From Candidatus Zhuqueibacterota bacterium (GTDB taxonomy: Bacteria; Zhuqueibacterota; Zhuqueibacteria; Thermofontimicrobiales; Thiofontviventaceae), in the NCBI GenBank assembly GCA_016926625.1, contig JAFGOE010000019.1, forward strand, positions 1-64,000: DNA of 64,000 nucleotides, read 5' to 3'. The notes beneath the pieces are model-generated. The model saw nothing but the letters and a program-made list of their open reading frames with translations, did not search any database and was not told the DNA's origin. Shown piece by piece: positions 55,515 to 56,537 of the stretch. How positions within the stretch are numbered: position 1 is the stretch's first letter; each line of letters begins with the position of its first letter. The position numbers were made by a program, and so were the translations under genes.

Positions 55515-55559
55515 CAGTTTAGAAACTTGATAAATAATTTTCTGACCTGGAGGTTACTG

Positions 55560-56537
55560 ATGTCTTATAAACATTTTGCAGTTTTAGCCTTTTTATTGTT
55601 CAGTAGTTGTGATCTCGGATCCCAATCCATGGTGCCAACGAAGATCCATGTATTCGCCACGAGTAATATCATTGGCTACTTGTCTCCTTGCGGCTGAGGC
55701 AGCTCCCGGCGGGGAGGTTTGGCTCGGCGAGCCGCTTATGTCAATGATCAGATAAAACAACCCGAACATGTTTTAAACCTGGATTGCGGTGATTTCCTCA
55801 GTGGAGGACGCGAAATCGATAGCATTAAGGCAGATTTTTTGCTCAAAGGTTTTTCCAAATTGAACATAGACGCCATCAATGTCGGCGAACGCGATTTTAT
55901 GTTGGGTCCTCAGTGGATACTCGACATTCAAAAGAAATATGAACTGCCGTTCATCTCTGCCAATGTCTATTTTCCGGATTCATCGCGCAGATTTCTTGAT
56001 CCGTACATCATTCGAAAGTTCAAAGAGGTAAAAACGAATGATGCCAGGATAAATTCGGTAAAGGTAGGGATATTCGGAGTCGTTTTAAACCGACCGGTTC
56101 TTGTTTACAGTAAGCACACACCCAAACTGATCACGACGGATCCTTTCAGGGAGACTGAGAAAGTATTGCGAGAACTAAAGGGTAAATGTGATGTGGTGAT
56201 CGCACTGGCTCACTTACCGTCCAATGAATTGCACGATTTTCGCAATCGCTTTCCCGATATCGATCTGATTATCGGTGGTCATTCCTTCTATAATGAGATC
56301 ATCGCGGATTCAACGGGACTGGGTACCCTGATTGAAACTGGCAGTAAGGGTCAATTCGTCGGTAATATCGAGATGATATTGGATAAGGATAGAAAATCTG
56401 TACAAGTGAATGCGTTTAACCAATCACTCGAACTCGACATGCCGCAAGATCCTGATCTGAAGACGCTCGAAGAGGAGTCTGAGGAGGCGATCAGACGTTT
56501 TTATGATGCGAGGACAAAACAACAAAGTATTCATTAG
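55560..56537 (+). CDS. UshA-like metallophosphoesterase lipoprotein, predicted selenoprotein (Sec at codon 46, TGA 55695-55697)
   Basis: In-frame reading from ATG 55560: MSYKHFAVLAFLLFSSCDLGSQSMVPTKIHVFATSNIIGYLSPCG-U-GSSRRGGLARRAAYVNDQIKQ... continuous with the 55719 ORF (same frame). SD-like tggagg upstream. Downstream motifs NLDCGDFLSG, NVGERDFMLGPQW, VIALAHLPSNEL, DLIIGGHSFY. Confidence 0.85.
55690..55735 (+). promoter_or_regulatory. Candidate bacterial SECIS element overlapping and following the Sec UGA
   Basis: Outer pairing GCGGCU (55690-55695) with AGCCGC (55730-55735); inner hairpin CUCCC-GGCG-GGGAG (55703-55716); alternative hairpin GGCUC-GGC-GAGCC (55721-55733), loop 28 nt after UGA. 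Confidence 0.6.

Follow-up and report, generated by a model that had tools for sequence, protein, structure and literature searches.

A predicted short-form UshA-like selenoprotein of Candidatus Zhuqueibacterota and its heme-bearing sisters

The gene and its product

The window, i.e. the whole stretch of 64,000 nucleotides analysed here (positions 1 to 64,000 of contig JAFGOE010000019.1 from Candidatus Zhuqueibacterota bacterium), carries between glyS (upstream) and a helicase gene (downstream) a reading frame that begins at ATG 55560, passes through a TGA at codon 46 (55695-55697) and ends at TAG 56535-56537. With the TGA translated as selenocysteine, the following features can be assigned:

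55547..55553, + strand: ribosome-binding site TGGAGG, about 7 bases 5′ of the ATG (reading of the sequence)
55560..56537, + strand: predicted gene for an UshA-like selenoprotein of the short (cytochrome-less) type; the product has 325 aa, with Sec46 (translation with TGA as Sec, NF041198, Pfam Metallophos, homologues with TGA)
55560..55610, + strand: putative signal peptide with a possible lipobox LFSSC at residues 13-17 (reading of the sequence)
55689..55697, + strand: Cys44-Gly45-Sec46 (CxU), with the TGA at 55695-55697 (TGA in 81 of 82 homologues, TGC in 1)
55721..55733, + strand: predicted bacterial SECIS apical hairpin GGCTC-GGC-GAGCC (covariation, synonymous-codon tests, published rules)
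55788..55793, + strand: Gly77-Asp78, the metallophosphoesterase GD motif, kept (alignment to 5′-nucleotidases, ligand table)
56211..56288, + strand: stretch with His218 and His241, site-2 ligand positions kept, the last His replaced by Phe243 (alignment, ligand table)

The PCGU motif occupies residues 43-46 in the context PCGUGSSRRGGLARRA, and the protein matches Pfam Metallophos. A standard ORF call starts at TTG 55719 and yields a 272-aa protein that lacks the likely active site. The sequence-only reading that preceded this work had recognized this mechanical start and extended the frame upstream through the TGA to ATG 55560; its coordinates are exact, and the GGAGG 5′ of the ATG is indeed present. 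Since TGA also terminates the neighbouring window genes metG, tatD and rhomboid, it is not generally reassigned here. A lipobox-like N-terminus is seen in 13 of 51 short forms, several of which carry lipoboxes of the LLAC or LIGC type.

Recoding of the in-frame TGA

A protein search returned matches in 58 of 60 relatives, dozens of them with a lone in-frame TGA and no further stop. Among the 82 de-duplicated homologues the aligned codon is TGA in all except one, which has TGC, and the sequence is conserved on both sides, in line with the earlier argument from flanking conservation against a chance nonsense codon. These counts have to be read in the light of how the homologues were collected: 58 contigs were gathered by a DNA pattern that itself contains the TGA, those of the relatives by protein similarity, so that the ratio of Sec to Cys is unbiased only for the relatives, where there is likewise one Cys case. 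The CxU and GGxARR motifs are kept throughout, although part of this invariance comes from the way the set was assembled, with the motif as a search criterion. The same TGA motif occurs in contigs labelled Acidobacteria, Krumholzibacteriota, Armatimonadetes, Latescibacterota, Gemmatimonadetes and others. Two further genes, labelled Actinomycetota (L170) and Bacteroidetes (L172), are near-copies of a Calditrichota (L122) and a KSB1-class (G036) gene, respectively, and their genomes are likely mislabelled or mis-binned.

The expectation that the family typically carries Cys at this site (PCGC) did not hold for this phylum: selenocysteine is the rule there, and the PCGC form was found in none of 82 of its genomes. 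The single Cys protein (L037, also L098), which aligns at the TGA site, reads QCGC. It comes from a genome (G021) that is 96% complete, and in which selA was not found, nor selB, the top match being a 401-aa elongation factor below the cut-off; the sole tRNA-Sec-like match there is a tRNA-Leu. Three family neighbours of this genome possess selB. The hairpin described below is broken in the Cys homologue. In G021 the change from Sec to Cys and the loss of the Sec machinery go together.

The codons for LARRA within the conserved motif also specify a hairpin, GGCTC-GGC-GAGCC, which begins about 23 nt after the TGA and has its apical loop 28 nt after it. The GGC loop, the stem of 5-6 bp and the 28-nt spacing fit the published bSECIS rules, which include an energy limit of −7.5 kcal/mol (PMC13188914); at −7.4 kcal/mol the isolated window hairpin falls just short of this limit. 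Within the window RNA another fold competes, and the minimum-energy structure does not include the hairpin, whose pair probability is 0.25. In the 68 genes with standard residues, the wobble positions of Ala and of the second Arg form a T-A combination in 32 cases and C-G in 28. These positions could pair in 61 of the 68 genes, whereas none of 5000 shuffles gave more than 55. CGG encodes the first Arg in 65 of the 68, yet makes up 25% of the Arg codons in the rest of these genes. A stem of at least 4 bp lies at exactly this place in 78% of genes versus 26% of synonymous shuffles, and a 5-bp stem in 64% versus 11.5%. On the tree, the state switches between T-A and C-G at least nine times, including within the sister pairs L107/L109, L039/L118, L024/L025 and L028/L034. 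Selection on RNA pairing is the best explanation of such repeated synonymous compensatory change, which shared descent alone would not produce.

The stem is missing in 18 of 81 genes, mostly of one lineage. Genes of the PCGU-SG[ST]RRGG lineage (L110-L117 and kin), in which SGSRRGG is the main sequence following the Sec, have no LARRA hairpin (0-1 bp) and presumably use a different SECIS structure. Folding energy over the whole region 3′ of the TGA was dropped as evidence, being weakly below that of synonymous shuffles (mean z −0.87 against −0.63 for the control). The covarying hairpin had escaped the sequence-only reading, and no description of a LARRA hairpin was found in the literature searched.

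A search of the genome for selA, selB, selC and selD had been proposed as a check on the selenoprotein assignment. Three of the four genes are present with scores above cut-off in the window's genome: selA (569.9 bits) adjoins selB (385.6 bits) on contig C111, and selD (388 bits) lies on C107. The selD match (L079, G000:C107:22627-23544) is part of a 756-aa open frame, which exceeds the length of SelD by itself and possibly encodes a fusion protein. The fourth, selC (tRNA-Sec), was not found in the window's assembly, which is 85% complete. A tRNA-Sec scoring above 60 bits is present in 41 of 60 relatives (L049-L078, L180-L186), including G001 of the same family, and all seven of the relatives' tRNAs examined with ARAGORN were called tRNA-SeC(tca). 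Given the incompleteness of the assembly and how common selC is in close kin, its absence is likely an assembly gap. A survey of candidate division KSB1, to which the window's genome belongs, has reported selABD without selC (PMC9012183); the presence of tRNA-Sec in most of the relatives searched makes this absence doubtful and suggests that selC was overlooked in the survey.

We found it hardly credible that the TGA is a chance nonsense mutation in a pseudogene, with the protein beginning at TTG 55719. Such a reading could appeal to the start chosen by the standard ORF caller and to the selC gene missing from the assembly, but it leaves aside a TGA shared by 81 of 82 homologues, the compensatory wobble changes 3′ of it, a ribosome-binding site 5′ of ATG 55560 and the selA, selB and selD genes. 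Judged from comparative sequence data, the window TGA is almost certainly read as selenocysteine, as the sequence-only reading had proposed. None of the refuting conditions named there was borne out: selA, selB and selD are found in the genome, and the homologue with Cys has it at the aligned site.

A decayed nucleotidase fold and a movable heme tail

The structure model of the window protein (mean pLDDT 92.6) finds nearly all of its top solved-structure matches among 5′-nucleotidases, including CD73 and E. coli UshA, with TM values of ~0.7-0.76 over the query. Ligand positions were mapped via alignment with solved nucleotidases, the identities of the site 1 and site 2 ligands being those established for CD73 and UshA. 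The two-metal site D-H-D-N-H-H-H of these enzymes is not preserved, the equivalent residues being N36, I38, D78, E110, H218, H241 and F243. Site 1 thus corresponds to N36, I38, D78 and F243, and site 2 to D78, E110, H218 and H241, with R111 at the position of the catalytic His. The loss of the UshA DxH ligands claimed in the sequence-only reading therefore holds for site 1, while the metal-competent D78, E110, H218 and H241 had been missed. All of site 2 is retained in 26 of the 76 homologues, among them the window protein; 45 have lost nearly all of it.

Could the protein still be a phosphoesterase or nucleotidase, perhaps with a single metal and with the Sec in a structural or regulatory role? 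The fold, the distant sequence similarity to CD73 and UshA and the retained site-2 positions of the window protein are what one would expect of it. However, the site-1 ligands and the catalytic His have been replaced, none of the 76 homologues has a complete site 1, the nucleotide-binding C-terminal domain is absent and scores to UshA models are far below their cut-offs, and we regard this possibility as highly improbable.

A C-terminal tail with three to four CxxCH motifs is found in 25 of 76 full-length homologues and is lacking in the other 51; where tested, it matches Pfam Cytochrome_C554. By translation and Pfam search, this tetraheme cytochrome tail is absent from the window protein. The window's genome, in addition, has a second UshA-like selenoprotein of the long form (L082:9205-10602, G000:C29; 465 aa), with one in-frame TGA and four CxxCH motifs. 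A tree of 41 homologues requires at least four changes between forms with and without the tail, which accordingly behaves as a movable module; the C-x-U persists in both. The predicted model of a long form is of low confidence over the heme tail. Gene neighbourhoods of 41 homologues contained no conserved redox operon or redox partner; they consist of housekeeping genes, with glyS upstream and a helicase gene downstream at 14 loci, or of genes of the outer-membrane and secretion type. The long heme form and the second copy had gone unnoticed in the sequence-only reading, and no description of the heme fusion was found in the literature searched.

Function and place in the family

We consider it probable that the window protein is an exported oxidoreductase that works through C-x-Sec and is built on a decayed 5′-nucleotidase fold, with its TGA read as Sec by means of SelB and a SECIS, and with hemes or a separate partner handling electrons. 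According to this model, SelB and the SECIS hairpin would direct selenocysteine to the TGA at 55695-55697. The protein would then be exported and adopt the metal-domain fold of 5′-nucleotidases without their two-metal phosphoesterase site. Directly after the lost site-1 ligand positions, C44-x-U46 would form a thiol/selenol redox centre, beside which one metal ion may remain at D78, E110, H218 and H241. Long forms would exchange electrons between the C-x-U and the fused tetraheme tail of the cytochrome c554 type, whereas in the short form a separate electron carrier would replace the hemes. The redox role is suggested by the heme tail itself, with at least three CxxCH motifs in 25 of 76 full-length homologues and at least four gains or losses on the tree.

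The C-x-U might instead be a metal-binding pair, either holding a soft metal or complementing a new metal site, in a selenoprotein that acts as a hydrolase or metal carrier rather than as an oxidoreductase. Soft metals bind well to Cys and Sec, and a possible site-2 quartet (D78/E110/H218/H241) is kept together in the 26 homologues that include the window protein. This we think unlikely, since the C-x-U persists in the 45 homologues where the other possible ligands have almost wholly vanished; fusion to a tetraheme cytochrome likewise points to electron transfer, and selenocysteine is known to serve mostly in redox catalysis (PMC2398784). The weak similarity to SoxB would make sulfur compounds candidate substrates, worth testing and no more.

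The UshA-like selenoprotein family (COG0737, CxU) has been known since at least 2008 (PMC2398784, PMC9312934, PMC13188914), with entries 76 and 92 in a table of PMC2398784 taken here to refer to Sec and Cys sequences, and its novelty had accordingly been overrated in the sequence-only reading. The name given there, 'UshA-like (seleno)protein', does exist in public annotation as NCBIfam NF041198 (UshA_like_PCGU), and the placement in an UshA-like family with a CxU motif is upheld by the match to this model and by the PCGU aligned across homologues. The window protein shares the N-domain of NF041198 and its PCGU...GGLARRA motif, residues 9-285 matching profile positions 4-278 of 519 (138.9 bits, E 1.9e-40). 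It remains below the cut-off of 275 bits; its match ends at profile position 278 of 519, and it lacks the tetraheme cytochrome c554 tail found at the C-terminus of the members tested that exceed the cut-off. The second copy does pass, as do two further long forms (314.5, 308.2 and 284.1 bits), whereas five short forms tested score 135-195 bits. The related N-domain of NF049981 (UshA-like (seleno)protein family 2) gives 43.8 bits, far below its cut-off of 140, and that family has CxxU in place of CxU (PMC13188914). The UshA/CD73 5′-nucleotidases and SoxB share the metallophosphoesterase fold, the latter with weak HMM similarity; in contrast to them, the window protein has lost metal site 1, gained the CxU and lacks the nucleotide-binding C-terminal domain. 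The family is thus known, and its short form, the hairpin of that form and the heme-bearing sisters are undescribed in the literature searched.

The short form escapes the curated cut-off and, because of its in-frame TGA, is truncated by standard ORF callers. The covarying hairpin and the clean swap of Sec for Cys accompanied by loss of selA and selB provide useful cases for SECIS models, and our data bear on the published claim of selABD without selC in KSB1 (PMC9012183). Through the heme fusion, a selenoprotein family that has been listed for years gains a testable role, electron transfer between C-x-Sec and c-type heme. More tentatively, with the odds slightly against it, a modular C-x-Sec redox domain derived from a nucleotidase may have joined and left a tetraheme cytochrome repeatedly, and would represent a class of cytochrome-linked seleno-oxidoreductases in KSB1 and other little-known phyla.
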